Shown here: positions 6,113 to 60,063 of the stretch, piece by piece | How positions within the stretch are numbered: the first letter of the stretch is position 1 | How the letters are laid out: each line of letters starts with the position of its first letter | Translations under genes and position numbers: made by a program | Notes under the pieces: model-generated | Database searches by the model: none | Seen by the model: the letters and a program-made list of their open reading frames with translations, nothing else | What the model was told of the DNA's origin: nothing | From: Branchiostoma floridae | Taxonomy: Eukaryota; Chordata; Leptocardii; Amphioxiformes; Branchiostomatidae | DNA length: 64,000 nt | Direction: 5' to 3' | Assembly (NCBI RefSeq): GCF_000003815.2 | Contig: NC_049993.1 | Span: 15,893,367-15,957,366, forward strand

Positions 6113-6125
6113 ATTATTTTAGAAG

Positions 6126-9595: not shown

Positions 9596-12500
9596 TTAAA
9601 TACTGTAGCGGCGGAAGATGGACACCCGCAGCAGGTCTCCACAGCGTCCACAGTTAGGGTAAGACTTGCCGTCCTTCTTAGGAACGTGCCAGCAGCGGGT
9701 ACAGCGGACTCGGTACTTCTTGTACCTGTTGCGGCAAAGACAGGGGTCAGGCATCCATTGATCACATCCTGAACATGACTAGCTGGCATCATAGAAAATA
9801 TACTACTCTGAAAACACAGCGCTAAAACAATACCTCTGCGTGAATTAGTAACCTCTTCCATTACCTAGGCTCTTAGGTCGGATTAACGACTGGTTCTACC
9901 ACCTCTGACTCTTACATCCCTTCGGTAAGTCTGACTTTTTTGGTCATCTACCCATTTACTTCCTGGTAATGAACAAGAACACACACCAACACCATCAAAA
10001 CATGCACACTTAAACAGTGAGTTGATGAGCGCGGTTAAAGGTACTCTGGCGACACTCGGGGTTAAGGGTCTCTACGTTATTCACGTCTGCATCATCAATT
10101 CAAATTATCGGCGTTGTCTTTCTTCTCGACTGTACAGTGATACGAAAAGACGACCCACCTGATTCCGCATGCGTTACAGAGCGGAGTTCCGTCCTCTGCG
10201 TCCCGCCACAGGGGAGTCTTCTTGGTGTCACAGGAGGCGCACTGCTTAGCACCTGGGCAACGGACACAGATATCGTATGGAAAGATCGCTAGTGACGTCA
10301 CAACCTCATTTACATAGCCCCGGTCATGTTGGTAGATTGGACGGATCCAAGACGGCGACCGGTCATTCCCAACCACCAAGTGATATTTAAGTGCTTTTTT
10401 TCTAAATATAAAAAGTGAATGTCAGAGAATGTTTGGATCTTAAAGCCATTAGTGTAAATGATATGTTAAACTTATCTTGTTTATTGAAGAGGTTCATCAG
10501 GCACGTATGTAGACAGTTACTACCAATTTTCTTCCAACAGTGACTGTTTTAAAGTTAAGGTACATACATTGCTGTAGTTATGGAGTACTTTACCCAAACA
10601 GTCACTGAAAATTGGCAGTAACTTAATAATAATGATGAACTTAATAATATCTTGTTCATATTTCAAATACCTCATTTGTATCCACCTGTTTGTTTGCATG
10701 CATCTTACGAAAGTAACTACTTTAATTTTGTTGTGTCAGTAAATATTGAATCTATGATTGTTACCATGAGAATGTTGTCCTGTTGGGTGCGGCTCCTCGT
10801 GCTCAGACCCGCTGGTGGTCTCCGTCAGGCTGCCGCTGCGGCGGCGGTAGGACGCGGCGTCTGACTCCGAGAAGCGGCGCGGGCGAGCCGCCTGAGAGCG
10901 TCGCCGGATGCTGCAATAACATACAATTTTCTGTCTGAACATTCACTTCTGCTATAGAATGCTTTTGCTAACCTTCAGGTAAAAAAAAGACACAGCGTAC
11001 ACTAGGTCTTGACCACTCCATGAACAAAATGGACTGATAGCCATCTAAAATTTGGAGGTACGTGTGTTAACCTTTTAAAAGTAGTCACTACTTGATGAAA
11101 ATTCTATTAATTAATAAATTATCCACACTTTATTTATTGACTCTGTGTAGGGTGTTCCTTTTCGGTGTTTCTGTTTGTTTGTGTTGGTGTGTGTCAGTAG
11201 TGTGGCAGGAGGTCAATGACCGCAAACGTATGATTTGCTGGATGGCTGAAAGTAAAGATCTAAGGTGAAATCAGTCGTAGATTTGACAGTTCAGGTCACG
11301 TGGTCAATGGACGAGGCTACTACTTTTACGGGCGAAGTGTTGTTTTGGTCTGTTTATATCTTTTGGTATGTGTTTTTTTAGTTTTGTGCTAGGATTACCT
11401 AAGATATAGGCTCACCTGAAATAGGAGCGGATCCGGAGGGACGGTTTCGGGTGAGGAAGCGTCTCTATCTGGAACGTCACACCTTTGAAGGCGGGGTCGA
11501 ACCGTGCAGGACTCTTGGTGGGTTTAGCTGGTTTACGGCGGCTGTGGCTCCTGATCTGGGATTGGGTAGAGATGAAATTCGCAATGTCAAACTTTCACTG
11601 CGATGGCCCAAAGCTACAATATGTGGACAGTTAGGTTCGAATTTCAAGGGAACACTGATAAGAAGTTAGGTCAAAGGTCCCACAAGATAAAAGTTACTGA
11701 ATAGGTTATCATATTTTCTGTCTTTAATTTCCTCATTGATTCATGTTTGCTGCATTATGAAAAACCTGATTGCACAGAATAAGCGATAAATTCATTAGAA
11801 ATATTCCTCGGAGGTTCATGAGATCTTTAACCTCTTCAAAGTCATACAAAGTGTATTTACACTCAGTTATGTTCAAGACACCGCAGATGTGGACTCACCA
11901 CTTGTGGCGGTGTTCCACTGTTCCCCATTGCTGCAGTGTGTAGACAACTGAGAGTTCTATCTGCCGGCCGGTAGTACTCAGTCACCCGGGACAGGCCGTC
12001 CCCCGGCCCGCTACCTTCCTCAGGCTCGCTGACGTCCGTCACGGCTATGCTGCTCCAATAGTTCTCTCTAGGGGGCGCTGGTGATGCGTCCACAGTCGGC
12101 ACATCAGGCAGTTCATCGATGTCGTTAGGTGAGTTGTCGGTTGATTTATCGATGGACAGGGAGGCTAACTTGCGGGACACCGTGCCGGTACTACCTGCGC
12201 TGTCCGCCCGAGGACGGAACAAGGTGTTCCCGCTCGGGTCGTAAAAACGTTGGTTACCTCCGGAGGTAGTCGGTAAGACACTGGTGGCATAGATAGGTGC
12301 AGATTAGGATGTGAACATTTCTATTCGTATTAAAGACATATTGATTTGATTATAGGGAAGACATCCTTTTGGCATCCCAAAACCGAAGCGAGCGCGAAAA
12401 AGTAAAGTTGGACAAAAATGGCTTTAGCATGAAATCAAAGTGGCCAGGAAGGTTGAACAAATAGCAAATTCCTTATTTCTGTTCTTTCATATCTTCTTTG

Positions 12501-16759: not shown

Positions 16760-16937
16760 TGCTAGAGAAATTTCCCATGATGCAGCGCTCGCGCATGCTC
16801 TGTTGTAGCAAACAACATGGCGTCGCTGTCATGACAGCGGCAAACTTTTTCGTCAAACTTGAGCAGTTTTGGGCGAATTTGCGCAATTTTCAGGCATCTG
16901 GACCAGGGATTTTGACGTTTCATAATACTAGAAAAGG
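16760..16937 (+). promoter_or_regulatory. Possible UBE2U promoter and untranslated first exon
   Basis: A CpG-richer stretch (GCGCTCGCGCATGC near 16785) is followed by a good splice donor, AAAAG then GTAAGG, at 16936-16939. Exon 1 of UBE2U begins with a splice acceptor at 19090-19091 and has 25 untranslated bases before the ATG. A separate 5' untranslated exon is therefore required, and this is the best candidate seen. Confidence 0.35.
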
Positions 16938-17198
16938 TAAGGGATAATACTGAGGTGTCTAAGGTGTGCAAGTAAAGACGATCATGCATTTTCTACCACA
17001 TACTTTGCAGGCTAGGATCTCCAAGCAGATGTAAAGCGTTGTGGTAACGTTATACGTATCTTTTGTGGCATAATTTCCACGTTTTTCTGGTCGGGGAGAA
17101 AAAATGTGGACTACTAGAAAAATGTGCATAATTCTGCAAAAAAATATATGTTATTGCTGAATTTATTCTTATAGACGTCTTTAATTAAATGGTATTTT

Positions 17199-17932: not shown

Positions 17933-18134
17933 ATGTACGGAAAATCTAGATCATCTCTCTCTCTCAAGTCAACATAATTTTGTCAAAACAGATCAAGCTT
18001 GGTACTCCCTTGCTCAAACAACCACAGAAATTAGAATCCAGGGGACCAGGACCTAAATCAATGGATGGTCTTGTGGTTTGAATCTTAAGATTCTGTGTTT
18101 GATTCCATACCATTTTTTTGCAGCTTGTATACCT

Positions 18135-18993: not shown

Positions 18994-19115
18994 GTTACAC
19001 AGTATATTACATTTTATATCTAAACAAAAAAGAACAATAAAGTATAATACATATGCATCACCTTGTCTTATCATGTGTTTGTGATTTTCAGGGCGGAAGG
19101 TTGCAGAAACTTCAG

Positions 19116-19182
19116 TATGCACTCCAGGGCCTATCTTCTGTTAGAGAGAGAGTTCTACAAACTGCATGATGATCCTCCATGG
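19116..19182 (+). other. UBE2U exon 1 (start-codon exon)
   Basis: The acceptor AG is at 19090-19091, the exon begins at 19092 and the ATG is at 19117. The exon encodes MHSRAYLLLEREFYKLHDDP and ends CCATGG before the GTAGGT donor at 19183. Human UBE2U starts with the same MHxRAYLLL signature, which supports this start. Confidence 0.88.
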
Positions 19183-22100
19183 GTAGGTATAGAATGTAAC
19201 CATAAGTTGGATCCATAAAAGAACTATAAAACAGTACTCTCACCTCTCAAATAGAAGTACCCCCTGGAATAAAAGTACCCCCCCGGACAAATCTTCAAAA
19301 TCTAATAAAAGTACCCCCTGGAATAAAAGTACCCCCCGGAAAAATACCAAATTGACATGTAAACTGGGTCTGCCTGCTCGTTTGCACTCGTTTGTGGTGT
19401 TTAGGCATACCGATGTAAACTGTGTCCATGCTACTTCTGTCCAAGAGAAGATGATATTAAAGTAGGTAGGTTCTCTTTATTCATTTATGTCTGAGTACCG
19501 TATCAGTTAATTGTATATATAATGAACAGAATAACCATAGTTATCTTGTTCGATATATTATCTTTTTTTTCCATTTTGTAATAAAAGGTAATATATAAGA
19601 TTGATTTATAGTATTCGTAATTTTGTGAAAATTTACATGATACTTGTACATACATTTTCTACTTGGAACTTGAAGCAAGTGATCATGGAAAATTTTTGTA
19701 ATACTTCAAAAAGAATGGCTACATCACACTGCCATAATCTTAGAATGTTTATCATATTTGGACTTTTGTAATTGGTTAGATTGGGCCTTGAAAAATGTCA
19801 TATATATATATATAGAGAGAGAGAGAATAATACATTTGACCTGTACATATGTAATCTATTCACAATTTGCTGTGAGCTACACGTAGTTATTACATCCCAT
19901 GGTCCAAAGTCCATTTTCCCGCTACCGCGAAATTAAATCCCCGCGAACTTAAATGCATTTACAGTACTAGCTCAGAAAACATAAAGAAATAGCCATGCTT
20001 TCAAGTACCAGCGTTACATTTTTCTTTCTTTATAAGAACTGTCATAGATTAAGAATGGGAATTGTTACCACCAAGTATATACAGATGTAGCCCAACACAA
20101 TAGATATTTTTAAGGTTGGGGTCTGGTATCCAGGCTAATACAGATACAGATTTTGGCATAACTGTTTTTGTTAATGATTGTTCAACACTGCTTGTTGTTT
20201 CGCAGGGAATTGATGCAGGTCCAGTTGGAGATGAGAACATTTTTGATTGGTCAGCAACAATTATGGGTCTCAAGGATACAATATGGGAAGGCAAGTTATA
20301 CCCAAGTCTTCTTTATTTCTACCATTACAGGAGTATTTCTTACAAAATTGACAACAGCATTACTTCATGTCTTGTTTGGTATACCTTAAGTAACTAGTTT
20401 TCTTTCCGTGTTTTCCCCAGGTGGAATATTTCAAGTTCAGCTGAAGTTTAACGAGTTTTATAACGAGGAACCTCCAGAGGTGGCCTTTCACACCATTCCA
20501 TTCCATCCTAATGGTGAGTTTTAATACACATATAGAGGCATTTTATGATATTTCAAGAAAATCATGTTACATATATAGAGTTATCTCCCCCCAGGGACTT
20601 AATTTTGCAGTAAAAGGAGGTTTTTGTTGTATTTTAAGTTGTTGGAATAATTCTATTGTACAGTGGTTAAGTGATGCAACAGAAATGCACATTCAAATGA
20701 TCATGAATTAACAATGTAGTCTTAGTTGACAAAACCATGATCATTTCAAAATTTGCTGTACAGTGTTAGGGTTATCGACGCCTGTGTTGCCTATCAAAAA
20801 GAATTGCACAAATCTCCATCCTGTAGCAGGGAGAATGGCGCATTGCTTGGTCATGTGAACTTGTAAACATGTGACACAGTAACTCACTGTAAGTTCAATG
20901 TAATAGAAACCAGGTATTTTGTTCTCTTTTTGAACTGTTAAAAAGATGCAGTATTGCATTATACTTATGACAGATTCTGCATTGCTAATGATGGTTGTTT
21001 CTGTGTGTCTGTAGTACATTCTATCACAGGCAGACCCTGTATAGACTACTTGGACAACATCCAGGAATGGAAGGAGTCCTACAGTCTGGTACATGTCCTG
21101 CTGTCTATACAGGTAGGTAACAGTTTGCTTTTATTTGGAGTTAAGTGCGTGTTTGTATGTGTGTGAATGTATGTGTGTATGTGTGTTTATTTTTCTGTGT
21201 ATGTATGTGACTGTGTGTTTGTATTTCTGTGTTTGTGTGTGTGCTCACATTTTCAGTAAACACAATGCGGCATTGCCATTCTCCACTTACACACTTCCCA
21301 TAATTAAGTGCGAGAGGGTTCCGGATATGGATGTTACTTGGATGCTACCACAGTTGCTCAGGGTGCGAAACCAGGGTGGAACCACCTAAAACCTTCAGTA
21401 CGAGGGCGGAAAAGCATATAAACTAATAAGTTGTCTGGCGAATATAGTACAGTTATCATTTGGGCCGAGAATCTTACAAGTTTTGTAGTCAGAAGTAACT
21501 ACCTAACACGTGCACCACTGTGGCTGTTAGTTGGTTTCTTCCGATGACCTCAAGGGCCACACCTTGGCGTTTCGTCTGCAGCCTTTGTTTTTTTCCTGTC
21601 GGAAAGTGATTAAACCATTGTCCTGTGATCGGTTCCACACCAAACTATCATCTCCTTGATGTTTTCTGTGTTCGGAATTGGTTTAGAACCAATTTTCTGT
21701 GCCCTTGGAGTCAGTTCCGGAGTTCGGAGCAGCCATATCCGGAACCCTCTCGCACTTAATTATGGGAAGTGTGTAAGTGGAGAATATACATCAGATTCCT
21801 TGTGCTGCTCGCTACTTTTAGAATAGACACAAAGCATCATGGGTAAGGGAGTGAAGCCTGCCATCTCTGATTGCCTCTTCAACATATGGGATCGAATATT
21901 GTTATTTTGAGGTTTGGAGCTATGCAGAATCTTATTCTTGCAGTCTCTAATACTATTTTTGATCATGCAGGGTATAACAATAATGATTGTCGTTTATCCC
22001 ATGATTTCAGACCCTCCTGTCTAACCCAGTGGTAGAAGATGCAGTAAATGACGATGCTGCAAGGATGCTTGTGACCAACCCTGACAGATATCTAGAGATG

Positions 22101-23871
22101 GTACGGAGCTGTGTGGACGCCAGTAAACGAGTCCATGGTAATTAATAAGGAAAGATAAGAATTGAAATTGTCGCAATCCATGCTATGTCTATGATTGATT
22201 TTGAAAACGGTCAAACTTTTCAGACAGTGTCGCACTGTCTATTGTCGGTGAATGAACCAAAATCTGAAATTAATTAGCCTCAATTCTTTGTTATCCTGTC
22301 ATCTCAATTCAGTTTTAGCACGCCAAAGAGATTTATCTTTTACTTGTTAGGCAGAGAAGACAGATGCTATGTACTATGTATACGGTACTAGTATTTACAG
22401 GTTCATTGTTTTGGGCAGGGAACTTCTGCTAACTCCTTCCAACAAGCACAACTAACAATGGACCTCAACTTAACGTCTCAAGCTAGTACCTAACCCTTTC
22501 CAGTAGCGTGCATCAGGTTTGACAAGTCCATTAGCCCTTGTTCACGGCAAGTGAAAGTGCTGATCGGGCAAGTGCATGACCTACCCCACTTGCCCGATTG
22601 GGCAAGTAAGATTTTTCCATGGGTGAGATTTTGATAATTATACTTTTTACAGTCATGGCATCAAGCATTGGTCAACACAGAAACATAGAGCCAATAATAA
22701 AAGAATTCCATTGCTAGAAATGCAAAGTCATAGAGCTTTTAATGTCATTTAAATTTCGGGCAAGTGAAAAGTTGGTTCGGGCAAGTAGATTTTCTATATG
22801 TACTTGCCCGATAGGACGAGTGAATTTTATAAAACTTGTCCAACCCTGGTGCATGTCGGGTGAGTGACACAGCTGGGATTCAAACTCCTAAACTCTTAAT
22901 GGTCCAGAGACAAAGTCACTACAATATTGTATCTACTGTTGTTTAGCTGGCCTAAGTCCTCACGAAGAAGAAGAAAGGAAAATCAGACGAGATTTCCAGC
23001 CTTTTGTAGCGCCGGCTGCCAAGACCGCGGGAATCAAGACGAGGAAGGTGTCGTTTGATGAGTACCACACCACATGGAGCGGCATAGCTACGTCTAAAGC
23101 CACTCCCGCCATGAAAAACCCTTGTGAGTATGGGTTAGATGTTTGACTTTGAAAGAATGAGCATGAGATTTGGTAAATGGATGAATGAATGAAAGAAAGG
23201 ATATGCGATAAAGCCTGTTTTGCATGTGTTGTATTTCTGTCTCCATCTTATGATTTTTTTAAAGCCATTTGTTGATTGAAATTCTGTGTTCTTAATTTTT
23301 GTTGTGAAATCTGTCACTTCAAATTCATGTTATTAACTTCGTCAAGTTCAGATTTTTTGGGCAGACACTGAAAAGCAAATTTTTACATTTTGATGCAGTC
23401 TTTAAAATAGGGGCCATGCGAGGCCATGTGGAACTGCAGCCGACTCACCAAGGCAGTCACATACATTGATACACCGAATGGGCAAACACCTTCTGAAAGT
23501 TGACTCATCAATACACTGTCTACCATAAAGCAAAGTTCATGCCCCGCTGTCTTTCACGTTACAATGTTTACAGATGCTTCCAGATTTTGGTCGCACTACA
23601 TTTTTAGCCCTACGTCATTGACTCTGGAGTTCACAGGTAAATACTGTGTTCTGCTCCCTTGTGTACAGATGGCTAGGGCTATGTTCAATGTTCAATGTAA
23701 TTTCATGACATTGTGATGTGAGATATTTGTTTCTTGTTGTTCCTCAGTGTTAGAGTCTATCCGTGACGACCCTATACGACAATCCTCCCACTACGGACTG
23801 ACTGTGGAGCAACTGCAGGACCAGATGAAGAGACAACTGGAGGAGTAAGTACTAAGTACATACATTAAGTA

Positions 23872-23902
<31 letters not shown>

Positions 23903-24945
23903 GTTACATACATACATAGACATACATGTAGTACTCTATTGAGTTGTAGCATTAACAAACTAAGTTCCTCTTCTAGTGTGATCTTAAGTTACATGTATTA
24001 TCCATCATTATAGTTAGGTTCCTGTCGCTTTGTCCAGTCTCTGATTTAATCAAGTTCTTTTAGCATAAGGTATGGACGACCTCTTCTCCTTTTTGCTTTT
24101 GGGGTGTCATCGTGGTGACATAATGGTTCGGGTGCCCCAGAACCAAGAGTTACTGTGTTTGAAGCCCTGGTGCAATTGGATCAAACATTACAGTCTGGTC
24201 TCCAAGTTGACATCTGTAGTCACCTTGATAGATGATTTGGCATGTCATCTCAGATAGGATCGTAAAGCAGGAATTCTTGTGTTTTATTTTCAGATTTTCA
24301 TTTTTTTATGTTTGTGCTCTCTCCCCAGACACAATGCCCTGATGTACGGGAAATTTGTAGATCATGGAAAGACGGACGACCAACGCGAACAGAAACTCAT
24401 GAAGATCAACCAGATGAGGAAAGTTTACATGTCCAAAAGAATAACAGGTAGGATCTTATAATCATGTTTTTATAGAGTGTTTATTATGTTTACTGGTACC
24501 AGAAGTTAACATTGTTTCAGGTCAGTTTCTTCTTGTCCAAGCTAGTAAGGTTAATGACCTGGACTGGCTGGCTGTCACCATGGTTACTGGCAAAATAGCA
24601 GACATCCTGTGGTGTTGGATTACATAATGTAGCAAGTGGCAGGACAGAGCTGGTGGTGCTGGTCACCATTGTATATACATGTTTTTGTCTAAGAATAACC
24701 AGAGCAATAGTTTGTATACCATGGGAAGGTAAATACCAGGCATTTGCTTGCAAAATTTTAATGTTATCGTTCTAGTTTATGTCTCACAAGTGATCTCTTT
24801 CCTTCCAGAACCCTCCACCCCCACCCCGAGTGACACCAAGGAATTTGCTCCCCCCAAGGAGAGTGAGGAACCCTGGGAAAAAGAGGTCGATGACCTCGTG
24901 GCCTGGACACACAACCTGGATGAGCAGCACCTAGAGTCTGTGTGA
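19117..24945 (+). CDS. UBE2U: Ubiquitin-conjugating enzyme E2 U
   Basis: Ten coding exons: 19117-19182, 20206-20290, 20421-20513, 21015-21112, 22011-22137, 22947-23123, 23574-23636, 23748-23844, 24329-24447, 24809-24945; 353 residues, all phases closing. The UBC fold spans about residues 1-150, with the HPN motif at 79-81 and the catalytic cysteine C90 in TGRPCIDYLDN, the position expected for UBE2U. It would accept ubiquitin from E1 as a thioester and pass it on with an E3; the substrates are unknown. The C-terminal extension keeps the KTxxxSFDEYHTTWSGIATS block shared with human UBE2U, then adds a charged, coiled-coil-prone tail (VEQLQDQMKRQLEE) and an acidic end. Intron 2 has a GC donor (20291). 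Introns contain a 508 bp inverted-repeat element and an ACAT microsatellite. Confidence 0.95.
19247..19345. repeat. Short tandem repeat, AAGTACCCCC units
   Basis: Four AATAAAAGTACCCCC-like units occur in UBE2U intron 1, arranged as two pairs about 55 bp apart. This looks like a small tandem duplication. Confidence 0.75.
19801..19970. repeat. TA/GA microsatellite and family B MITE fragment
   Basis: 19801-19826 is a (TA)n run passing into (GA)n. 19909-19970 carries the right end of family B (CCCGCTACCGCGAAATTAAA, ending TGCATTTACAGTA). Both are within UBE2U intron 1. Confidence 0.7.
21278..21785. mobile_element. Element with perfect 53 bp terminal inverted repeats
   Basis: 21278-21330 and 21733-21785 are exact reverse complements over 53 bases; the left begins ATTCTCCACTTACACACTTC and reaches GGTTCCGGATATGG. 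The 402 bp interior has no open frame of note. The perfect ends suggest a recent insertion into UBE2U intron 4. No target duplication longer than 2-3 bases is evident, and no superfamily could be assigned. Confidence 0.9.
22541..22860. repeat. Dispersed repeat with GGGCAAGT words
   Basis: In UBE2U intron 5. It contains many copies of GGGCAAGT in both orientations (GCCCGATTGGGCAAGT, TACTTGCCCGATAGG). A diverged copy lies at 58203-58480, sharing GGCAAGTGAAAGTG, GCTGATC and ACTTGCCC in order. A probable non-autonomous transposable element. Confidence 0.6.
23871..23935. repeat. ACAT microsatellite
   Basis: An (ACAT)n tract with a few interruptions in UBE2U intron 8. Confidence 0.85.
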
Positions 24946-27221: not shown

Positions 27222-30352
<3,131 letters not shown>

Positions 30353-31079
30353 GTTTGTTATCCTCTTGCTAGGCGATACCAAACTGAAGGGGTAAAGCAG
30401 AGGTGAAAAAAACTTCCTAAAACATGACAATTATATAAAGAATAGTAACTTACTCTTTAAAAGTTAAAAATTGGTTGTTTAATTTAATATATCTATTCAA
30501 CAATCAGTTTTGACGACATATTTTATCGTAATTTACTAAATAAAATAGTTTGACCCCTACTATTGTAGTGAAACGACGAAGGCATGACTGCTATTGAGCG
30601 TAAAACTAGTCGCTTATTTAAAGCTAGCAGAATACTAATACATCGCATGTAAAACAATAATGTTGAATCATTTTATTCTACTGATATATTGCATAACATT
30701 GATGGTTATTTTTTGTTTGTTTTTTAAGATCTAATGTAGCTATTTTGGTCCGTGATAACCAGTGAATTTGGTTCTTAGTCAAATTATGGAATTATATTTC
30801 GAATGGTTCGCCGAATCTGAGGGCAGCTTTCCTCTGACTCCGATGGCTGCGTTTGGCAAAGTTTTCAGGCGCTGGAAGAAGAAAGCATAGCTGGAATTGT
30901 TTCTCGTCGCTCTACCGTTTTACGCAGTCCAGCGCGGGCCAAACAGCTACTGGATATTTTTATAGACATTCTAGAGGATCACTGCATACAACATGAGGTG
31001 AAGCCGAGCAAGTTTTGCCTCAGAAATTTTACATTTTCTTTTCGTCTGACTCTGAGGTAAAAGTCGTCCAACAACAAAG
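30353..31079. promoter_or_regulatory. Divergent promoter interval FDX2/CACHD1
   Basis: The FDX2 start (30352, -) and CACHD1 start (31080, +) are 727 bp apart, head to head, so both promoters must lie here unless untranslated exons intervene. The CACHD1-proximal half is C+G-richer. It contains a 34-codon ATG frame (30786-30890, +) and an overlapping ATG-less 79-codon open frame (30821-31060). Either could be upstream ORF sequence in a CACHD1 leader. No TATA box is obvious. Confidence 0.55.
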
Positions 31080-34000
31080 ATGGCGGCGGGGACTCCTGGA
31101 TTGTTGTTGCCGCATGCTGCAGTGTTTATGGTTCTTTTGTGGACGACTCTTGGTGACCCAGGCTTGGATTCTCCGGTAGCAGGCGACGGGGAAAGAAGCC
31201 TAGACAAACGGGATATAAGCGGGGACCACCGGGACGGTACAGGCGGGGATTTGCCGTTCGATTTGGGGAGTCTTTTCGGGAGAATGGCCCCCGCGAGAGA
31301 CGAGATGGAGGTTACTGTAGAAGTGGCTGCCCGTGCGTTAGCAGAAACACTTCACACGCTTGGCGACGAAAAAGTCGGAATTTTACCCATGCAGGTTTGT
31401 ATTAAACATTCTTTTCGTGTCTATATACGCTAAGGTATTCCTTTTGCTCAAGTATGGCGTTGAAATTAGAGTTTTTTGTGAGGTGCTTTGATCTTTCTAC
31501 CGAGCCACAGATGGCGAGTTGAGTGTGTTTTGCATGTTAGAAAAGACGTGTGAAAAACCTTCTTGGTTCCGCCTTACACCAAGGGAATAGGAATGTCTTG
31601 CCTGGAGGTTTTCATCCAAATAAGCTCAACAATTTCTTCTTCCTATGTCACACAGTAACATATGTTGTAAGTTTTCTATAGTATATTGACAGAATATAGT
31701 CTATATAGAAAATACAAAATTCACACACCCAGTTCAAATTATGTTCACTTAGAAATAAGGTAAATTTTAGGGGGTCTAAAATTTTCGATTTTTATATACA
31801 TGTATTGCCTTACAAAAAGGGCTCAAGTCACCATTTATTGTAACTAAGGGAACCTGAATGATATGTTTTTTTATAACTGCAAAAGTGCTTGTTTTATAAC
31901 TTAACTACAACCAAGGAGGTTTTTCAACCTCCTTGCTATCACATATTTGCTTGAATGACTTTCTCACCAATTCACACATACATGTACAATTTACCTTATT
32001 ATGCAGTGGTAGAAAAAAATAGGAGCTTGTACTCAAATCATCTGGGGAACAAACACTTGGCAAGTAAATGTGAAAATCAGTCAACAGGCATTTGTTTTGC
32101 ACCCTGTGTGCGTTTCGACTCATTTGAACTTCAAAAGCCAGTGATGACAAGGCAAAGAAAAGGAGCTAGAAGTTGGACCAAGCTGCTAAACAGTTTCTGT
32201 AAAGATGGTACTACACCTCATTCTGATGTGTGTTTATTTGGCTGTTTGTTTGTTTGTTTGTAGCACCTAACCGGTAAAGTGCCTAAAGGCATAACACACC
32301 ACTTGTGTACGGTAGTAATCTTATGCTACCGTAGGATCTGCTTGCCCAAGTGCACAACATTGTTACCTGCAAGGGCTTCAATTCCAGGTCCTAAGTCAAT
32401 TATAGGTATAAGACTTAACTTCAAGACTGGACATTTTTATGTCTATTCGTTGTTTGTTACTAATGTTAGCAGGTTCTAACCTTGACAGGGCATCCATGCA
32501 AATATCTACTAGTAGTATATTACTCGATTAGAAATCATTTTAAACAATTTTAAATAAATTTAACATTTTGATTTTGAAAAAAAAATAGGGCAGCAGGTCT
32601 TTCATTAGGAATGCCCCACTGACGCGGTGTCATGAATTAATGGAAAGAGTCAGTTAATTAAGATGTAAGTAAACCCTTATTGATTTTTTGGCGTCAGAGA
32701 GAGTAGAATTTTGTCCATGTGGCACTCCTGGATTTCCAACCCCGGAGATAATGCATTATTTAGTCCCCCCTTTGACTCTCCTGGCTTTCTGTCAGTGACA
32801 TTGCCAGAGAAATGGATGGATACAACAGACCACCTTTGTGACTGGGTCTTTTATGTCTTCCCTTGTGGGTACATCTGACCTTTCTAGTGATAAGCACTCA
32901 GCTAAAAGAAGAGCAGGAGGTTAGAAAAGTGAAGCTATCTGCCCCCTTTTATCACTCAATATATTTTGCGACAGAACCTAAGAAAACAACTGCCATTTCT
33001 TGAAGGAATCATCTAGTTACATGTGGGAGGAGAGAAATTAAGTTATGCTTTTTGTTTTGAGATCATATAAATAAAAAGCTGGTGACTTCCTTTTGTTGCG
33101 GTGACAAAGTGTTTATACCAAATTATAGCTTGAAAAGTGTTTTGTAAAGTCTGTCTAGACCAGACTGTATTTTTTTACATTGAATAAAAAAGGGTCAATT
33201 GTGCCTTTCTGCATCTGTTTGGATATAACCTTATCCTTATTATAATCTCATGTACAATATGGCTATAAGCATACCTTAAAGTTAAATATATTAATATTTA
33301 CCGGAAAATAGTTGTTACTCATATGGCAAGTAACAATAACAAATATTGGAAGATCAAGTCTCTTCCTTTCACCAAGACTACCAGGTTTTAACCTAAAGAT
33401 TTAGTGTTTTATCCAGCTTCTCAAGAATGTCTTCAGAAGGCTCTTGAGTCTTGGCGATACTTGGATACCTGAAGTGTGCATACCACAGGGCTTGTTGATC
33501 CTGTATTAGTACAGTAGATCTCTTTAAATTCACTCTTACTTTTTTTTATGTGGTGATCTTAGCATACCTTCTGAAATTATGGATATGAGAGATTACATTT
33601 AATGTATGGTACCTTAGCCCCTAGGACTGATTGAGACTGGTTGAAACTGAGAGATAGAGAATTCCCATGGCACAGTCATTAATGTCCTGATTTATTCAGT
33701 GGCCACAGTGCTAAAGATGAGATTGTTCATTCATGTGGGGATATTGGAGTGAAATGCCCCATTGATTTTTATGTGGGAAGCTTACCACTTCATTCAAGTG
33801 GAGATATGCACCTACCAATGGTAACACCAGAGTGTAATCGCAATGCAGATGGTCAAAGATGTTCAAAAATCAAAATACAGTGTACTGTTTTCGAGGAATT
33901 TGATACACTTTCTTTTTGCATTCCGTAGGTTTAGATTACATTTCTAAACCGGGGCCCGGCCGGGATGTTTAAAGGAATGAAAAATTAAAATGTATACCTA

Positions 34001-37000
34001 AAAATTTACACAAATCATGACCATGAATCTCATTTTGAAATGTTGTGTGTTTTATTTGTATCAATCTTTTTGCTCCCTAAAGCTGCCCGACTGGGCCCCG
34101 GCTTTGAAATGTGCCCTAAGCCTTACTAGTACTAACATGAAATATAACATGAAAGTTATCCATCTTGAAAAGTGGTGTATTTTTTCTGCCGAAATTTCTA
34201 AAATCTCTTAATTTAGCCTTTTAACATTATTCAAGGCACTTGGTACACTTTGCAAAGCGTTTTGTTACTAGTATCTCCTTGGAGCCAGAAAAAGAAAACT
34301 AGATTCACGATGTTCTGATGATTTCCTATTTTATACTTCAAGGTGTACTGTCAAGTCATTAATTTTTGCAGTGACTAAATGTTGCTCTGGAGGAAAAAAG
34401 GTTAGACGCATGATAATAACATTGTTCAATTTTTTTTCTTTCAGAAAATCTACGACTCTTTGTCATACTCAGTAAAATCATCAAATGAACAACAGACAAT
34501 ACAACAGGTATGTGGCCAGTTACATTATTAATAAAGTTTATTGCAAATTCTTGCCGTGGGCTAATTGCAGGTAACATGAGAGGTTCAGATAAAGTAAAGA
34601 CAATATGAAAGCTAACTCTAGGTCCTGGGTTATTAGGTGCAACTCCTTTTTCGAAGACAGTGGAAGACGAAAGATCCTTTTATATTATGTGTGGGTATTG
34701 TGAAGTTAGAAGGAGAATTGTTTTCTTTTTGTCGGTGAATGTTAAGAAGTTTGGATGGAATTTGGTGGCCTCTTCAAACAGCTCTTTTCTTTCGTGATTG
34801 TAGAAAGAGCAGTTTGACATAAAATGTGTTTCGTCTTCCACCATGTTTGATGTGCACAGTTTGCACGTTCTTTTACACACAGGTAACGTCTTGTACATTA
34901 TTATAAGTTATCCCTTTAATGTATTCAGTGAATTCAAACTTAAAGATTTCAGATATTACAGTTTTGTATTAAAGTAAAATCATTTATTGAGAGTAATGAT
35001 ATGCTAAGTAGAAAGATAAACGAATAATATAAGACAAAAATTTCTATTTGTTTGCTTTCTTGTAGTGTCTAAGCCAATAATTGCATTGTTTCTATATCTG
35101 TTATATGTGTTTTTTTATTCACAGTTGGCGAGAAATCTCAGGGACAAGTTGAATAATTACGTGGGAGCCTTGGACAAGTTGAGACGAAACGTGAGGAACC
35201 TGTACAGGACACATCTCCGCCACATACTCACACATAGGAACGACTGCTGTTACCTGGACAGTACACTCCTACAGTAAGTATAGCACCACATTGGAAATCT
35301 AACATACATAAAGGAAAAGTTAGCAGTTTATTTGTAAGTAATTATATTCATGCATGATCATAAGTATCAATGTCATATATGTTGATTTGTAGGCCAATTC
35401 AATTATCAACACGAAAAACATGTTAACAGCAAGTTCAGAAACTGAAACTTGATTTATTATGTCTCTGTCATTACTTTATCACTTGCATTTATATTTTGAT
35501 TGGTGCCTACCTCTGTGTGAGGGATCCCAGCAGCATACTGGATACTACTATGATAACTATCACTGGAATTTATATTCATTTCTTGGTACCTGGTTTGTTA
35601 TGATAACCCTTTTTTTGCAGTCAGTGCTAGGACTGATTTTGTAAGTTATGGTAAAATGTAGTATTTTGAGGCTGTAACTTGTAAGGGCAATAAGTTGTTA
35701 TCTACTGTGTCTAGGGCATGATGTTGGGAGGGGGAACCCATCCCTCTCTTCCTTCACCTTTTACTAGTTTACCTCCCCAACCAAAGTCAGGTACCCACCT
35801 TGATACAGAGTGAGGAAAGTCGTGTAAAGTGCATTTCCCAAGAGCACAACATCGGTGGATTTAAACCCAGGACCTCTTGGTTCTGGAACGAACACACTAA
35901 CCAAATTATACCAACACTATGTCACACGTGCCTGAAAATCCCTTGCCAGTGTCCGACAAGTTGTACTGGCAATGGAATTTCAGTCTTTTGTTTGGCACAT
36001 TTAAGTTTGCAGTGATTTACTTTGTGGTAGTGGGAAAAATGGAGTGTTCGCGGTGGTTTTAAGTTCGCAGTAGTACTGTAGACTGCAGTCTCATACAGGA
36101 AAAATGTTTGCGGTGGCTTTAAGTTTGGGTGAAGTGGGTGAGGGGGGGAGTGGCCCGGAGAGGGGGGGGATCCCCCACCTCTCTGGAGGAGAAGCTGTTG
36201 CATTTTACCCTTCTCAAATACATTTTGAAGCCTTCTCCTGCAACTTGAGCTGAGAATGTGACAAACTAAAGACACAAAAAAATCAAGCCCAATGAAGTAC
36301 AAAAAAGAGCATTTAATAACTCTATTTACAGCAAATTTTTACAGATCAATGTCACTCATAATGATTGTCAACAGAACAATTTCTACTGTTTAAAACAACT
36401 CAAAAACATGTCAAACTATATCTTAAAAAAAAAAGGCATGGAAATATTCAAGATTAATTCAAAGCTCATCGTTACAACTTAACAGGTGTTTATAACAATA
36501 GAAATGACCAAGACATGTACTACATTTAAGAGTATTCAAGTCGACATAAACATTAATACAAAGCAACATTTTTTTTAACTTAAACAGATGTTTATAACAA
36601 TAGAAATGATTAAGACATGTTACTACATCAAGGAGTATTCAAGTAATTCAAAGCATCATCGTTATAACTTAACAGGTGCAGGTGTAACTGTTATAACAAT
36701 AGAAAATTCAAATGATGTTCAAGACATGTTACTACATTAAGGAGTATTGTCTATTTTTAATTTACAAGTACATCATGTTTGAGAAAACTTGTAAAAAAGC
36801 AACGATAAGTTCGACAATATATCAAGAATTATTCAATGCAAATATTAAATTGTTAACGTTACAATTATTATCCGTTTGAAAATGATTTACTAAACACGGT
36901 ACCTTTGGAAATTCGCCTTCGTTTCAGCGGCCCTTTTGGTCAGATCGTCCTTGTTAGCGGTGATCCGCGGCGATGTCCCAGTGTTGTCGGTGTTTACGGT

Positions 37001-40000
37001 CTTCTCGGCCCGCGAAACACGACCTGCGCCACCCGACATAGCCGCTCTCTGCGGCTCGGGGGTGGGCTGGACCGGCTCCGTCGAGCGTTTTGCCGGCGGC
37101 TCCTCCTCGGCTACGCGGACTGTGGTTGCCGCCAAAGTCGTCACAAAGAACGCTGCGATCGTTCTTTGGTCGTCAGCAGGCTTCGGGAGTCGCTTGCGTT
37201 TCGGCATGGTTGGATCGTCGATGTAAACAAACTCGGCAAAAGTTGTGTTTATGTCCCCCAAACCGCGGGGAGGGCCTTTTAAAGCCGTCAGCAGCGGCCC
37301 GAGATCCTACCAATAAGATTGCTCTGTTTAGCACGCCACGTTTGAATCAACCAAAATCAACCAATAAGACGTAAGTGAAATGCTCGCGAGATTTGGATCG
37401 CGAGACTTTGCGTGTTTTCGCATCCAACATGGCGTGGGTCATGGCGTCGCTAGCGAAAATAGCGACGCTGTGTTCAAACTTGTGCGAATACCTATTTTTT
37501 TCGCCTATTTGTCCGCGAAAAGAGACCCTAAATTTGAAAATTTTGGGAGCGGCGCGGGGATTTTTGGGAGTGGCGCCGCGCCGTTCTCTCATTCTGTAGT
37601 TAGACCGCTGATAGAACCACTAATTTCTGCATTTACAGTAAGCTTTCCCTTGATATAGTTTTAATGTGGAAAGCAAATGATTAAACCTGTTGACCGTTTT
37701 TTTCAGGTTTGACAGTACGTTCCAGACCAATATCTCCAGAAGTCTGAGTTGTGACAGAATAGCCACTGGAACACCCTCCAGAATGTTTAACCCTGGCAGA
37801 AATCTTACCAGAGGTAGGACACATCAAGTATTATCCCATCAATATAAGTTATATTCAATATGATATTTTTTAAACAGTCTTTTGGCTAATTTTTCACACA
37901 CAGGTTCAACCTATGATATGGATGACATCCAAAAGAAGACATTGGCAAAAAAAGTTGCCTTTGTTATAAAATCTAAGTGATCAGGAAGGTTTAACAAATG
38001 AGTATCATAAACCGAACAATAGATTCTTCATTTTTGTTCTTTTACTTTGGAATTGACTATGTCATTCTACGCTATCCACTTTCCAATATGTTTTGGCAAT
38101 TCGCGGCATACGTTTATATAGTTTCGGCTGATTAGTTTGACATACAGTTATGGTCGAAATATTTATTTCGAAACAGACAAAAATTAATGCTTTTGCGGAT
38201 GTCACCCATATAATGGAATCAACATGCCATGTGTACATGTGTGGTTTGAAAAATCTCTTCTTTTCGTCCCCCAGTGTTTATAGAGAACCTGAACGATTCC
38301 CCCTTCCTAAAGTGGCAGTACTTCAGTTCGGAGGATGGCATCTTTAATGTGTTCCCGGCGCACAGGTTCAGCGCCAGACACAGGCACCGTGACTACAGAT
38401 GTGAGGAGGGCTTCGAGCACAGAAACAGGTGACTTTTAGTCATGTCAAGTTTTTGGGCTACACCTCTGGGGCGGAGCCAGTAAAATAGTATTTTCTCCCG
38501 TAGTGTAAATGCATTTAAGTTTCCAGTAGCAGAAAAAGGACTTTTTTGGTGGTTAATGTTCGCGATAGCACCATGCACTGTAGTCTCTTATTGCCATGGA
38601 AAAACGTTTCCGGTGGTTTGAAGTTCACAGTGAATTGGCAACGTGAAAACTGCGAACATAAAACCACCGTGAACATTTCTGCATTTACAGGATGCCATTT
38701 TTTTAGGTATTTCAAATTTTGTGGGTTTTTTTATCATAACACATATAGCATTTTTTTTTAATATCAAGCTTGTGACTTTATCAACCAAAGCATAAATTTC
38801 GCATCACTTTTTGGTTTGTCTAATGATTGAAATTTTTCTTGTTTCAGACCTTTGTACTCGGCAACAGTGAGGCCCAGCCCTAAGTATGTAGTGATTATAG
38901 TGGACAGGGGTGTGGCATTGAGTGAGGACAAGTTACGTATTGCTAAACAGGCAGCCCAGATGGTCATCTCAACACTCATGGAACAAGACAAGGTGGGTTA
39001 TCAATTATGGAACCTTTGACTTTTTTGAGCAAACTTCCTGTCAGTTTGCATATGGATACTACTGTATTCAACTAACTTTGGACTCACAAGCAAACATCTT
39101 AATCACTCGTCAAGTACAGTCAAACCTGTCTATATCGGCCACTCAAGGGACTGGAGAAGTGTGGCCACTATAGACAGGTGGTCACTAAAGAGGAAATGCT
39201 GATCAATTGACCACGAGCAATAAGTTACACATGATTTGAGTACCCACTGATCTTTCTCACCAAGTTACAATGTCTCTGTTGTCTCAAAACCCTGCCAATT
39301 AAAGTCAAATTTCCCCAAATGATTGATATTGCTATGCAGAATGTTGATAAATTTGCCGACAAAGACTTGCACTCTAAGTCTGTCAAAGCATGCGTACCTT
39401 CCACTACCGCCAAAATAACCCTGTCAACTCCGAATCATCACAAAATATGATTTTAAACCTGGCACAGGGTGATATACGGCTGCTGTTTGGTCGCAGTAGG
39501 CGGTGTTCCTGTATCTACGGGACCCAAAATCGTGTGGTTGTGGCCGTGTTGGACAGGTGACCGCTATAGACTATTTCTTTATGCTTAGGTCAGTGGGGGA
39601 AAATCCAAGGGACCGACAAATAGTGACCGCAATGATCAGGCGGCCGCTATGCAAAGGTGGCAGCTTATACAGGTTTAAATGTAAGTACCAACCATGATCT
39701 GACTAAAAGCCTGTTTGTCCCGTAGGTTGCAGTACTGAGCCTGTCTGGAAAGGTGAAGACGTCCTCAGAAGACGAGTGTTTCCGCCGTCTCCTGGCGCCC
39801 GCCTCACAACAAGTCAAACAGAAACTCAACAGATTTATCGACAACATCAAACTCGGCAAAGGTGAGCAAATTTCTTATTGTTTTTATGAATTTCATATTC
39901 AATCAATTACTGTGAATTGACTGATTCTATTCTTCCATTTTCCTCCGCTGGCATTCATAAGGTAAAAAGCGTAAAATTGAAGACAGGAAATGAGATTACC

Positions 40001-52000: not shown

Positions 52001-54157
52001 ATAACCATGATGTGTGTGTTGTTTGCAGTGACTGTTTTGGCGTGCTGGACTGTGAGTGGTGCATGTTAGGACCTGATGGAGAAACCCCCCTGGAGAAGGA
52101 GTACTGTGCCAGTCAGAGGGTGTGCTTCGGAGGGGTGGTGGGCAGCAAGTCACCTTACTTTGATGAAGTCGGTAAGTGGAGCACAATACACTCTGTCTGA
52201 GACTTTGGCATAATGGTTCATGATACATTCTTTTTTTTCTATTTGGTTTGGACAGACAATGACAATGTGGCACTGCACTCAAGATAGTAACTGATATTAA
52301 CAGTGCCACATACACAGTACAGACAGAAGGTAAAGGTAGTCTTTCCTATTATCCCCTAACCGAAGTCAGGTACCCATTTTTACACCTGGGTGAAGTGAGG
52401 AAGGTTGTGTAAAGTGCGTTTCCCAAGAGCACAACGTCAGGTATCGAACTCAGGACCATTAGATTCCGAGCCGAACACTCTACCAGTTACGGCACACATA
52501 AGATCAACACAGTTCCTAACATTGTGTATTACTCCACCCCCACACAGCGGCCAACCAGTTCCCCAGGCGCGTGCACAACGCACCCGTGGGCCCGGTCGCA
52601 GGCGGCATCATGGCGGTCATCCTGGTCTTCTGAAAGTTATAACTTATAATGTAATGTTTGGAAGAGATAAGATCGACACAGTTCCTAACATTGTGTACTA
52701 CTCCACCCCCACACAGCGGCCAACCAGTTCCCCAGGCGTGTACACAACGCACCCTTGGCCCCGGTCGCGGGCGGCATCATGGCCGTCATCCTCGATAAGA
52801 TAAGATAAGATCGACACAGTTCCAAACATGTGTTTTACTCCACCCCCCACACAGCGGCCAACCAGTTCCCCAGGCGCGTACACAACGCACCGGTGGGTCC
52901 GATCTCAGGCGGCATCATGGCGGTCATCCTGGTCTTCATGTAACATGTAACTTATAATGGAATGTTTGGAAGAGATAAGATCGACACAGTTCCCAACATG
53001 TGTTTTACTCCACCCCCCACACAGCAGCTAACCAGTTCCCCAGGCGCGTACACAACGCACCCGTGGGCCCGGTCGCGGGCGGCATCATGGCGGTCATCCT
53101 GGTCTTCGCGCTCGCCATCTACTTCTACCGGCACCACGTGCACCGGCTCCAGCGCCAGCAGACCCTACAGAACGCGGAGACAACGATGCGGATGTCTCAG
53201 CTGGATGAACGGGACGAAGAACCAGACGACCCACCAGAGAACCATGGGATAGGTAGCTTCTTGTTAGGTATTGTATGATGTCTTGTGTTTGGGTGTGACT
53301 TGTAGAGAGAGATGATACTTAGACATTTGTAGTCTATGGACACATCAGAAAACAGCAAATGAGGACATATAAATAGTCATTAGTAACTGGTGTAATACAA
53401 TACATGTTTAAATGTATAGGCATGTTATGTTATGACCAAATGACAATTGTTATCAAGGCCAAGGAAGAAAAATGTTGTTTCTTTTCGTTGCATCTAAAAA
53501 AGAGAGAATCCCTCATTCCCTGTTTACTAGCCCTAATTATTGAGGACCACTATCCTGGAAACACAACATTAAATATTGTAGCATAAGGAAAGTTATACAT
53601 GTACCCTTCATAATATTGGCAGAAGACATGATATTTGATTGGCATAATCTATACAAGATGATATGCTCAGCATATATTCTGGCTGTTGGAAGATGGTGTG
53701 CATATTGGCTTCTACTAAAAGACAATTGTCTTTTATATATATCTGAATGTCATATTGTCTGCATTTGAACTATGGTATTTGTATGAGCAAGAGATGTACA
53801 CATATTAATCACTGTTGTAAGATATACATCTCGTACCAGTCTCTTATGCTAACAAATGTCTCATTTTCCCCAGATCACACCAGCTTTTTCCTGGCCACCA
53901 TCGAGCGCCGGCCGAGTCACCACGACCGGAGGAACCGTTACTCCCGCAGCACGCGTGGGACGGACAGCGACCACGGCTACAGCACCATGACCCCCCACGA
54001 AGACAGCGAGAACCCTCCCGCGTACTTAGAACCCCTGGTGCTGGAGCCCATCACCGCGGATAAAAACTACTCGGAGAGAATGGACCCACCTCCCCAAACA
54101 ATGCTGGGAAACAAATTACAAGCCCCCGTTCAGGTCCATATGGTAGATACCTGCTGA
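31080..54157 (+). CDS. CACHD1: VWFA and cache domain-containing protein 1
   Basis: 29 exons: 31080-31394, 34445-34507, 35125-35273, 37707-37813, 38275-38428, 38848-38992, 39726-39861, 40146-40232, 40580-40717, 41114-41214, 42396-42528, 43103-43267, 43827-43950, 44492-44609, 45684-45762, 46208-46297, 46704-46846, 47569-47663, 47813-47896, 48426-48536, 48860-48982, 49146-49245, 50073-50171, 50351-50416, 50703-50789, 51190-51422, 52029-52171, 53025-53252, 53874-54157. Phases close; 1299 residues (human about 1274). Order: signal peptide (1-27), N-terminal region, VWFA (about 263-465), two Cache regions (about 480-640 and 780-920), cysteine-rich block (1005-1129), transmembrane helix (about 1146-1164) and cytoplasmic tail ending HMVDTC. 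It is an alpha2delta-like membrane protein; vertebrate CACHD1 modulates voltage-gated calcium channels and has a Wnt receptor role. [26 protein letters not shown] and [19 protein letters not shown]-type blocks make the assignment firm. Confidence 0.97.
34680..34898 (-). pseudogene. LINE-type retrotransposon C-terminal remnant
   Basis: A 72-residue frame reads [20 protein letters not shown] followed by [18 protein letters not shown] Cys-x2-Cys plus VEDExHF...C pattern followed by a helical tail is typical of the zinc-binding region after reverse transcriptase in some LINE families. Only this tail is present in CACHD1 intron 2; no reverse transcriptase domain adjoins it. An alternative is an unrelated short frame, but the motif match is good. 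Confidence 0.6.
35690..35907 (-). mobile_element. tRNA-derived SINE, copy 1
   Basis: On the minus strand it begins with GGTTAGTGTGTTCGTTCC and GGGTTTAAATCC, resembling tRNA A and B boxes. It continues with GTTGTGCTCTTGGGAAATGC and CACTTTACACGACTTTCCTC. The same string occurs at 52327-52500 and 61044-61290. No target duplication was identified. Confidence 0.65.
36462..36750. repeat. Three tandem units of about 95 bp
   Basis: Each unit contains TTTATAACAATAGAAATGA or a close variant, then AAGACATGT, CTACAT and GGAGTATTCAAG. The three diverged units lie back to back in CACHD1 intron 3. Confidence 0.75.
36890..37207 (-). CDS. Small basic protein frame with PCNA-interacting (PIP) motif
   Basis: Not recognised as a named family. 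It starts with a well-placed ATG at 37207 (ACCATGCCG): [20 protein letters not shown], and runs about 105 residues to TAG at 36890. QRTIAAFF fits the PIP-box pattern Q-x2-I/L/M-x2-F/Y-F/Y, next to a basic KRKR patch that could serve in nuclear import. The rest is Pro/Glu/Thr-rich and disordered-looking, ending [27 protein letters not shown] donor near 36904 may splice to unseen exons. It lies antisense within CACHD1 intron 3 in a CpG-rich island, which favours a real nested gene. It could instead be a retrocopy or chance frame. Confidence 0.45.
   Translation of the reverse strand: MPKRKRLPKPADDQRTIAAFFVTTLAATTVRVAEEEPPAKRSTEPVQPTPEPQRAAMSGGAGRVSRAEKTVNTDNTGTSPRITANKDDLTKRAAETKANFQRYRV
37208..37620. 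promoter_or_regulatory. CpG-rich island in CACHD1 intron 3
   Basis: Base composition and CpG density are far above the surrounding intron. It contains GCTCGCGAG and ATCGCGAGAC near 37381-37405, close to the TCTCGCGAGA promoter element, plus GCGGCGCGGGG-type runs near 37550-37560. It lies immediately upstream of the antisense PIP-motif frame and could act as its promoter or as an internal promoter for CACHD1. Confidence 0.45.
37902..38230. mobile_element. MITE-like repeat, family A, copy 3
   Basis: The left end is GATATGGATGACATCC and the right end is the reverse-type GTCACCCATATAATGG followed by AATCAACATG. The interior has GTGATCAGGAAGGTTTAACA and TTTGGAATTGACTATGTCAT, shared with the other copies. 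It is the cleanest full-length copy in the window. Confidence 0.7.
38501..38691. mobile_element. MITE-like repeat, family B, copy 1
   Basis: Terminal TAGTGTAAATGCA and TGCATTTACAG bracket 191 bp with GGTGGTTTGAAGTTCACAG and GGAAAAACGTTTCC. It matches the copies at 41507-41693 and 59684-59877. Confidence 0.7.
39117..39675. mobile_element. Non-autonomous DNA element, family C, copy 1
   Basis: The left end is CAGTCAAACCTGTCTATATC followed by GGCCAC. The right end is an imperfect reverse complement (GCAGCTTATACAGGTTT). The interior shares GCGTACCTTCC, ATATGATTTTAAAC, GTGATATACGG and GACTATTTCTTTATGCTTAG with 44178-44455. No transposase frame. Confidence 0.65.
40738..40860 (+). mobile_element. 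tRNA-like SINE head
   Basis: GGCAAAGTGGTAAGGG resembles an A box and GGGTTCAAATCCAG a B box, spaced as in a tRNA, directly after CACHD1 exon 9. It lacks tRNA cloverleaf pairing, so it is read as a SINE fragment rather than a tRNA gene. Confidence 0.5.
41507..41693. mobile_element. MITE-like repeat, family B, copy 2 (full)
   Basis: 13 bp terminal inverted repeats, TACTGTAAATGCA at 41507 and TGCATTTACAGTA ending 41693. Internal words include CCCGCTACCACGAAATAAAA and CTTAAATGCA. 187 bp, no coding capacity. Confidence 0.85.
42095..42270. repeat. Dispersed repeat in CACHD1 intron 10
   Basis: It shares GGGTTGCAGTCTTTAGG and a TGGTCCACTGTTCATTGT-like string with 46960-47050 (GGGTTGCAGTCCTTAGG, ACTCTTCATTGTGCTTG). 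The 46890-46945 stretch just before the second copy also resembles a tRNA-like SINE head. Confidence 0.5.
44178..44455. mobile_element. Non-autonomous DNA element, family C, copy 2 (truncated)
   Basis: Matches the right two thirds of 39117-39675, including GCGTACCTTCCGTTACC and GACTATTTCTTTATGCTTAG. The left terminus is missing. It ends about 36 bp before CACHD1 exon 14. Confidence 0.65.
44571..45110. repeat. Exon-derived 50 bp minisatellite carrying splice donors
   Basis: TGGGCACCTGTAAGTC occurs 11 times, starting at 44601, 44645, 44695, 44745, 44795, 44845, 44895, 44945, 44995, 45045 and 45095. The period is 44 bp once, then exactly 50 bp. The first copy is the real 3' end of CACHD1 exon 14 (coding NITYTWAP) with its donor CCT/GTAAGT. 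The other ten copies repeat that exon end and donor in the following intron. Units 4 and 6 share the variant GCACCATATCACTTATACC, so a two-unit block was also duplicated. Reading through from the exon meets an in-frame TAA inside the second unit. Confidence 0.95.
51588..51860. repeat. Direct tandem duplication, about 133 bp x 2
   Basis: TTGAAGCACATAGCCTTAT at 51598 recurs at 51731. Both are followed in order by CCTTTGGATTTAGCC, TTGAAAGCTACTTGATCTTC and GGGCTGGGAAGAGAGTGTGG. The two units are diverged at scattered positions. In CACHD1 intron 26. Confidence 0.9.
52327..52500 (-). mobile_element. tRNA-derived SINE, copy 2
   Basis: On the minus strand it reads GTAACTGGTAGAGTGTTCGG (A-box-like) and GAGTTCGATACC (B-box-like), then GTTGTGCTCTTGGGAAACGC. 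It lies just upstream of the duplicated transmembrane exon copies in CACHD1 intron 27. Confidence 0.7.
52548..52633 (+). pseudogene. Extra copy 1 of CACHD1 exon 28 (5' part)
   Basis: It follows an intact CCACACAG acceptor. In the phase fixed by exon 27 it reads [27 protein letters not shown] and then TGA at 52631-52633. It is nearly identical to the start of the true exon at 53025. Splicing to it would end the protein part-way through the transmembrane helix. No donor follows in frame, so it could only act as a terminal exon. Confidence 0.85.
52717..52808 (+). pseudogene. Extra copy 2 of CACHD1 exon 28 (5' part)
   Basis: Acceptor CCCACACAG, then the same phase and peptide with changes ([18 protein letters not shown]), then DKIR and TAA at 52806-52808. 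The spacing to copy 3 is 138 bp instead of about 170, because about 30 bp of the intervening unit is missing. Confidence 0.85.
52855..52943 (+). pseudogene. Extra copy 3 of CACHD1 exon 28 (5' part)
   Basis: Acceptor CCCCACACAG, peptide [28 protein letters not shown] and TAA at 52941-52943. It is followed by the same unit tail (AACTTATAATG...GGAAGAGATAAGATCGACAC) that precedes the genuine exon. Confidence 0.85.
53025..53252 (+). other. CACHD1 exon 28, functional transmembrane exon
   Basis: Acceptor AG at 53023-53024. It is the only one of four copies that continues past MAVILVF into [18 protein letters not shown], and it has a donor (ATAG/GTAGCT at 53253). It encodes the whole transmembrane helix and the first part of the cytoplasmic tail. 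Confidence 0.95.

Positions 54158-57766: not shown

Positions 57767-60063
<2,297 letters not shown>

Follow-up and report, generated by a model that had tools for sequence, protein, structure and literature searches.

A row of four amphioxus genes that joins genes split between human 19p13.2 and 1p31.3

Four genes that in human are divided between 19p13.2 (ZGLP1 and FDX2) and 1p31.3 (UBE2U and CACHD1) were found side by side in the amphioxus Branchiostoma floridae, within less than 45 kb and in the alternating order ZGLP1 (minus strand), UBE2U (plus strand), FDX2 (minus strand) and CACHD1 (plus strand). The row occupies positions 9,596-54,157 of the window, by which we mean the whole stretch of 64,000 nucleotides that was analysed (C15:15,893,367-15,957,366), and is bounded by the stop of ZGLP1 at its start and the stop of CACHD1 at its end. 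Contig C15 measures 21.5 Mb and represents 4.19% of an assembly of 513.4 Mb in 431 contigs. For all four genes, order and strands agreed with what a previous sequence-only reading of this DNA had stated.

It is very probable that an ancestral row of these four genes was copied in the early vertebrate doublings and that complementary loss then gave rise to the human pairs of 19p13.2 and 1p31.3. We infer that a duplication took place, when it did so, and which genes were lost afterwards. The last ancestor shared by amphioxus and vertebrates would have had ZGLP1, UBE2U, FDX2 and CACHD1 as neighbours in this alternating order, and their chromosome, today's C15, would have been duplicated when the genome of early vertebrates doubled. 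One copy would have become human 19p13.2, with UBE2U and CACHD1 lost, and another 1p31.3, with ZGLP1 and FDX2 lost, gene by gene. RAVER would have been located on the same ancestral chromosome, with both copies kept (RAVER1 and RAVER2).

Gene content of the row and its flanks

The ZGLP1 orthologue (9596-12280, minus strand) was read by eye as five exons with AG/GT borders: 12280-11899, 11555-11416, 10910-10765, 10252-10159, which carries the GATA finger, and 9725-9596, which carries the stop codon (9598-9596). A further 5' exon is likely near 12843-12666. The finger exon matched the GATA family with 50.7 bits and was one of eight GATA matches genome-wide. Its finger sequence, CASCDTKKTPLWRDAEDGTPLCNACGIR, differs from the other seven, and the form TPLWRDAEDGTPLCNACGIR was present in this finger alone among the eight; the exon after the finger exon starts with YKKYRVRCTRCWHVPKKDG. 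Of the other matches, four, located on C5 and C17, are ordinary fingers (TLWRR or TPLWRR) and another, on C16, diverges from them; the weakest two, on C2 and C1, could not be clearly recognised as GATA fingers when read in the frame used. ZGLP1 was assigned by the form of its GATA finger, which we take to be the mark of this gene, and the structure comparison covered UBE2U, FDX2 and CACHD1.

The UBE2U orthologue (19117-24945, plus strand; Pfam UQ_con) comprises exons at 19117-19182, 20206-20290, 20421-20513, 21015-21112, 22011 to about 22137, about 22990 to 23122, and about 24805 to 24945. When the five exons of the UBC domain were joined by hand, the match to 1yrv reached 145.6 bits vs. 108.6 for the next E2 among the best 60 of 292 chains; 1yrv is labelled 'ubiquitin-conjugating ligase MGC351130' in the PDB and is presumably human UBE2U. 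At the end of exon 2 (20290/20291) a GC donor apparently occurs in place of GT.

The FDX2 orthologue (30352-27222, minus strand; Pfam Fer2) begins with an ATG at 30352 and consists of a leader exon and ferredoxin exons near 29064, 28239 and 27404. Ferredoxin-2 scored 146.3 bits among its PDB matches and an 'adrenodoxin-like protein' 131, and a mitochondrial 'adrenodoxin homolog' and adrenodoxin itself (FDX1) scored 93.3 and 77.5 bits, respectively. The CACHD1 orthologue (31080-54157, plus strand), obtained by an exon scan, opens with an ATG in the first exon at 31080, continues with exons of the Cache region and a transmembrane exon near 53025-53262, and closes with the stop at 54155-54157. 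Its joined exon pieces matched 'VWFA and cache domain-containing protein 1' in the PDB (8.2e-56), the sole match up to E = 1. Borders are approximate for the ZGLP1 5' exon, the last three UBE2U exons, the inner part of FDX2 and most of CACHD1.

Misassembly or misidentified paralogues are hardly credible as an explanation of the row. The window and its 100 kb flanks contain 2,403 N, but the row is carried by a single uninterrupted stretch in which the exon borders are consistent, and three of its genes (UBE2U, FDX2 and CACHD1) were identified by their best-matching solved proteins and outscored their nearest paralogues by wide margins, so that misidentification was rejected. A chance neighbourhood was also rejected, the probability that two given genes adjoin being about 1e-4 when 20,000 genes are assumed.

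FDX2 and CACHD1 are arranged head to head, with 727 bp between their start codons (30353-31079), and this interval might hold a shared promoter. ZGLP1 and UBE2U also lie head to head, about 6 kb apart. Each of these pairs is split by strand, one vertebrate copy keeping the genes of the amphioxus minus strand and the other those of the plus strand. It is quite unlikely that bidirectional promoters, once duplicated, became one-way in each copy and that loss tracked promoter sides rather than chance; with just two pairs, such a pattern is indistinguishable from chance. For human, the strands of the four genes are assumed here, as is the immediate neighbourhood of ZGLP1 and FDX2.

Some other features were observed in and around CACHD1. 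About three copies of a stretch (THPW.RS.AASW... repeated) occur in open reading frames at 52400-53260, around and before the transmembrane exon, as if the region of this exon had been duplicated in tandem. An open frame of 138 amino acids with a high coding score (36890-37306, minus strand) is found in a CACHD1 intron, on the opposite strand; a Pfam search of this frame gave no match, and its QRTIAAFF segment resembles what we take to be a PCNA-binding (PIP) box.

Adjoining CACHD1, a calponin/transgelin-type gene (57770-60060, minus strand) displays a CH domain and one calponin repeat; human CNN1 (19p13.2) and CNN3 (1p21) are presumably its paralogon relatives. The 100 kb flanks contain genes of the SLC44 choline-transporter, DnaJ plus DnaJ_C, uroporphyrinogen decarboxylase, P450, POT-transporter and rhodopsin-receptor families. 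In human, SLC44A2 and DNAJB1 are on 19p13, and SLC44A5, DNAJB4 and UROD on 1p. These flank genes were picked as recognisable, and serve as an illustration and not as a count; the coding scan that names these few genes was a rough one, with seven long open frames as its training set. The window also includes a single-frame C2H2 zinc-finger array of 518 amino acids (6123-7679, plus strand), with a similar array at C15:15873966, and, at 5097-5438 on the minus strand, an open frame that encodes the Mos1 (mariner-type) transposase HTH domain (HTH_48).

Human neighbourhoods and marker families on the amphioxus chromosome

Published passages place both human pairs next to RAVER and JAK copies. At 19p13.2, one passage gives MRPL4, ZGLP1, FDX2, ICAM3, 'TYK' and RAVER1 (PMC8731227), another describes a ZGLP1-RAVER1 locus with FDX1L, ICAM1 and TYK2 (PMC4811771), and a third the vertebrate gene group angptl6-eif3g-dnmt1-s1pr2-cdc37-tyk2-raver1 (PMC6976628). 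On chromosome 1, the gene list of a 1p32p31 deletion, as given in the passage concerned, contains KANK4, USP1, DOCK7, ANGPTL3, ATG4C, FOXD3, ALG6, ITGB3BP, EFCAB7, DLEU2L, PGM1, ROR1, UBE2U and CACHD1, where PGM1, ROR1, UBE2U and CACHD1 are successive, as are DOCK7, ANGPTL3 and ATG4C (PMC5618647). A passage on the surroundings of LEPR lists ROR1, CACHD1, RAVER2, JAK1, AK4, DNAJC6, LEPROT and PDE4B (PMC4422726), and RAVER2, JAK1, UBE2U and CACHD1 are mentioned together for 1p31.3 in a further one (PMC5904227); the 1p31 genes in a passage of PMC1877820 are given alphabetically, hence with no order information. A common ancestral chromosome is favoured because both human pairs stand beside RAVER and JAK copies in these passages (PMC8731227, PMC4422726, PMC5904227).

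Six marker families, chosen by human positions that are in part presumed, could be placed in the amphioxus genome. Five of them (RAVER, PDE4, KANK, ATG4C/D-type and DOCK6/7/8-type) were located on C15, and JAK on C2. PDE4A, KANK2, ATG4D and DOCK6 are presumed to be at human 19p13.2. RAVER lies at C15:10.20 Mb, 5.7 Mb from the window, with two exon matches (7.4e-44, with 50% identity, and 3.0e-10), and elsewhere in the genome the search gave only weak matches (3.0e-4 on C7 and 9.8e-4 on C11); the first exon matched Raver-1 with 162.8 bits vs. 57.8 for the next protein. The two exon matches of PDE4 were both at C15:9.10 Mb, and the single KANK match at C15:6.70 Mb.

Two genes were found for ATG4 (C15:11.98 Mb and C12:3.69 Mb; the latter at C12:3693252-3698014), and DOCK matched at C15:11.980 Mb and C12:10.27 Mb (C12:10268655-10268774). 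In the comparison with ATG4B, the C12 gene scored 129.7 bits over 88 residues vs. 141.8 bits over 191 residues for the C15 gene; the C12 gene is thus much closer to ATG4B, and the C15 gene was therefore taken, by elimination, as of the ATG4C/D type. The C15 DOCK exon matched DOCK6 with 3.9e-9, and the C12 exon, which hardly matches it (0.17), is therefore presumed to be of the DOCK9-11 type. Since the ATG4 and DOCK sister genes fall on C12, the marker searches do not simply favour C15. For these sister subfamilies, C12 corresponds to what C15 is for the marker genes: it carries both the ATG4A/B-type gene and the gene presumed to be of the DOCK9-11 type. On C15, the matched exons of the DOCK6/7/8-type gene (minus strand) and the ATG4C/D-type gene (plus strand) lie 3.8 kb apart and head to head (C15:11980048-11984806), and this pair is a second small block surviving from the human 1p31 region (DOCK7, ANGPTL3, ATG4C).

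By even chance, five of six families or better on C15 has a probability of 7.5e-7, a value to be read knowing that the C15 ATG4 and DOCK members were typed as ATG4C/D and DOCK6/7/8 after the matches were known. ATG4 and DOCK, being adjacent, are not independent markers; counted once, they leave four of five on C15, with a probability of 1.5e-5.

These placements bear on two other explanations of the human layout. A single vertebrate locus might have been broken by rearrangement without duplication, part of it going to chromosome 1 and part being left on 19. Each of the four genes is presumably single-copy in human, which agrees with a break in that no duplicate is left as witness. However, each human piece has RAVER and JAK copies of its own beside it, and a break predicts two blocks whereas the observed order alternates; we regard it as decidedly unlikely. 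The alternation, to which the sequence-only reading had given weight, does argue against a single break or block deletion, but it is weak alone, strict alternation being expected in 2 of 16 outcomes of the random loss of four duplicated genes. For the same reason, it needs no special cause.

Alternatively, the four genes could have been assembled on the amphioxus branch, each human pair being ancestral and the two mutually unlinked. Contig C15 should, from its numbering, correspond to BFL15. In the passages of Simakov et al. (2020, PMC7269912), amphioxus has 1:1 linkage groups with extensive internal reordering, so that conservation of a row is not what one would generally expect; such extensive rearrangement of gene order in amphioxus chromosomes suits an assembly on this branch, as do the distance of 5.7 Mb between RAVER and the row and the location of JAK on another contig. 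On the other hand, RAVER and JAK paralogues link the two human regions to each other, five marker families are on C15, and the interleaving of two pairs takes more steps, and an assembly on the amphioxus branch is, on balance, highly unlikely. The earlier proposal of a pre-duplication chromosome with genes of both human regions is supported by RAVER, PDE4, KANK and the ATG4C/D-type and DOCK6/7/8-type genes on C15.

Position of the JAK gene

The JAK FERM_F2 profile gave one match in the genome, at C2:21.22 Mb, and the seven PDB matches of this sequence corresponded to JAK2 (three), JAK1 (two), TYK2 (one) and an entry named 'Tyrosine-protein kinase' (one). Within 100 kb on either side of the window, no RAVER or JAK FERM match was better than E = 2. 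The CDC37_M and Jak1_Phl profiles had no match here or in control genomes, and hence are uninformative on absence; CDC37 is, we assume, a 19p13.2 gene. Families split over exons are easily missed, and this applies to the profile nulls as well as to a possible second JAK gene.

The sequence-only reading had proposed to look for JAK and RAVER near the row, and neither is there, JAK being on C2 and RAVER 5.7 Mb off. It had also named single RAVER and JAK genes on other chromosomes as evidence against itself: this is the case for JAK (C2) but not for RAVER (C15). The unduplicated order that it proposed holds for the four-gene row, which is intact, but it does not extend to six genes with RAVER and JAK. 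Complementary loss survives the JAK result, because each human pair has a RAVER copy as neighbour and the row of four is unbroken; besides RAVER1/RAVER2, the remaining paralogue pairs also back it.

In passages of Liongue et al. (2012, PMC3296744), both a tree and RAVER-linked synteny make JAK1 and TYK2 a pair, and two intermediates, JAK1/TYK2 and JAK2/JAK3, are postulated to have existed after 1R. JAK must have relocated, in one case during amphioxus evolution and in the other by joining the row's chromosome before the duplication of JAK1/TYK2. The second course is a variant of duplication with complementary loss, according to which JAK came from another ancestral linkage group and, in stem vertebrates, reached the chromosome before JAK1 and TYK2 arose by duplication; JAK beside RAVER would then be a vertebrate novelty. 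We hold this variant as a tentative possibility, to be taken seriously but not preferred. The location of JAK on C2 is in its favour, and C2 probably corresponds to BFL2. JAK3 and JAK2 are presumably on chicken chromosomes 28 and Z. In the passages of Simakov et al. (PMC7269912), BFL2 combines CLGJ with CLGC, chicken chromosome 28 corresponds to CLGC and chicken Z to CLGC mixed with CLGL, and most fusions took place between the two doublings. Against an arrival in stem vertebrates, a single-gene move on the amphioxus branch is equally simple, JAK1 and PDE4B appear in one human 1p31 list in the passage concerned (PMC4422726) whereas PDE4 is on C15, and a passage on relaxin linkage groups has JAK in three of four and PDE in two (PMC2805637). 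The PDE4B and relaxin evidence tilts the balance a little to a move of JAK on the amphioxus branch. The location of JAK off C15 is a caution against projecting the human JAK-RAVER neighbourhood onto the chordate ancestor.

Comparison with known systems

Double conserved synteny has been used for the genome duplications of yeast and teleosts; the comparison of amphioxus with human is an older one. In agreement with its definition, a contiguous outgroup row was found here to map to two duplicate regions, and the orthologue of the RAVER pair is on the chromosome of the row, together with PDE4, KANK and the ATG4C/D-type and DOCK6/7/8-type genes. JAK was not found on the row's chromosome, which the definition does not require, and RAVER and JAK do not adjoin the row, a point that falls outside it.

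On the reading by duplication and complementary loss, the row would record, gene by gene, the losses suffered by each vertebrate copy after 2R in the JAK1/TYK2 regions. The age of a row shared by amphioxus and vertebrates is over half a billion years, and the present one suggests that the order of four genes was perhaps kept over a long time on an otherwise much-rearranged chromosome. No earlier report of a ZGLP1-UBE2U-FDX2-CACHD1 row was found among the open-access papers searched.

As in the double conserved synteny of yeast and teleosts, a single unduplicated locus shows, in alternation, the genes that are divided between two duplicate regions, with complementary losses; in contrast with those cases, four genes are involved here and amphioxus is compared with human. 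The passages of Simakov et al. (2020, PMC7269912) likewise match a single chromosome of amphioxus with multiple copies in vertebrates that have lost genes, although theirs is a chromosome-scale comparison with reordering, whereas here a local row has kept its order. With Liongue et al. (2012, PMC3296744) we share the JAK1-TYK2 duplicate pair with RAVER-related neighbours; amphioxus and the row are absent from the passages of that study, and here JAK was found off the row's contig. The process is well known, and the row is a clean small instance of double conserved synteny after 2R.
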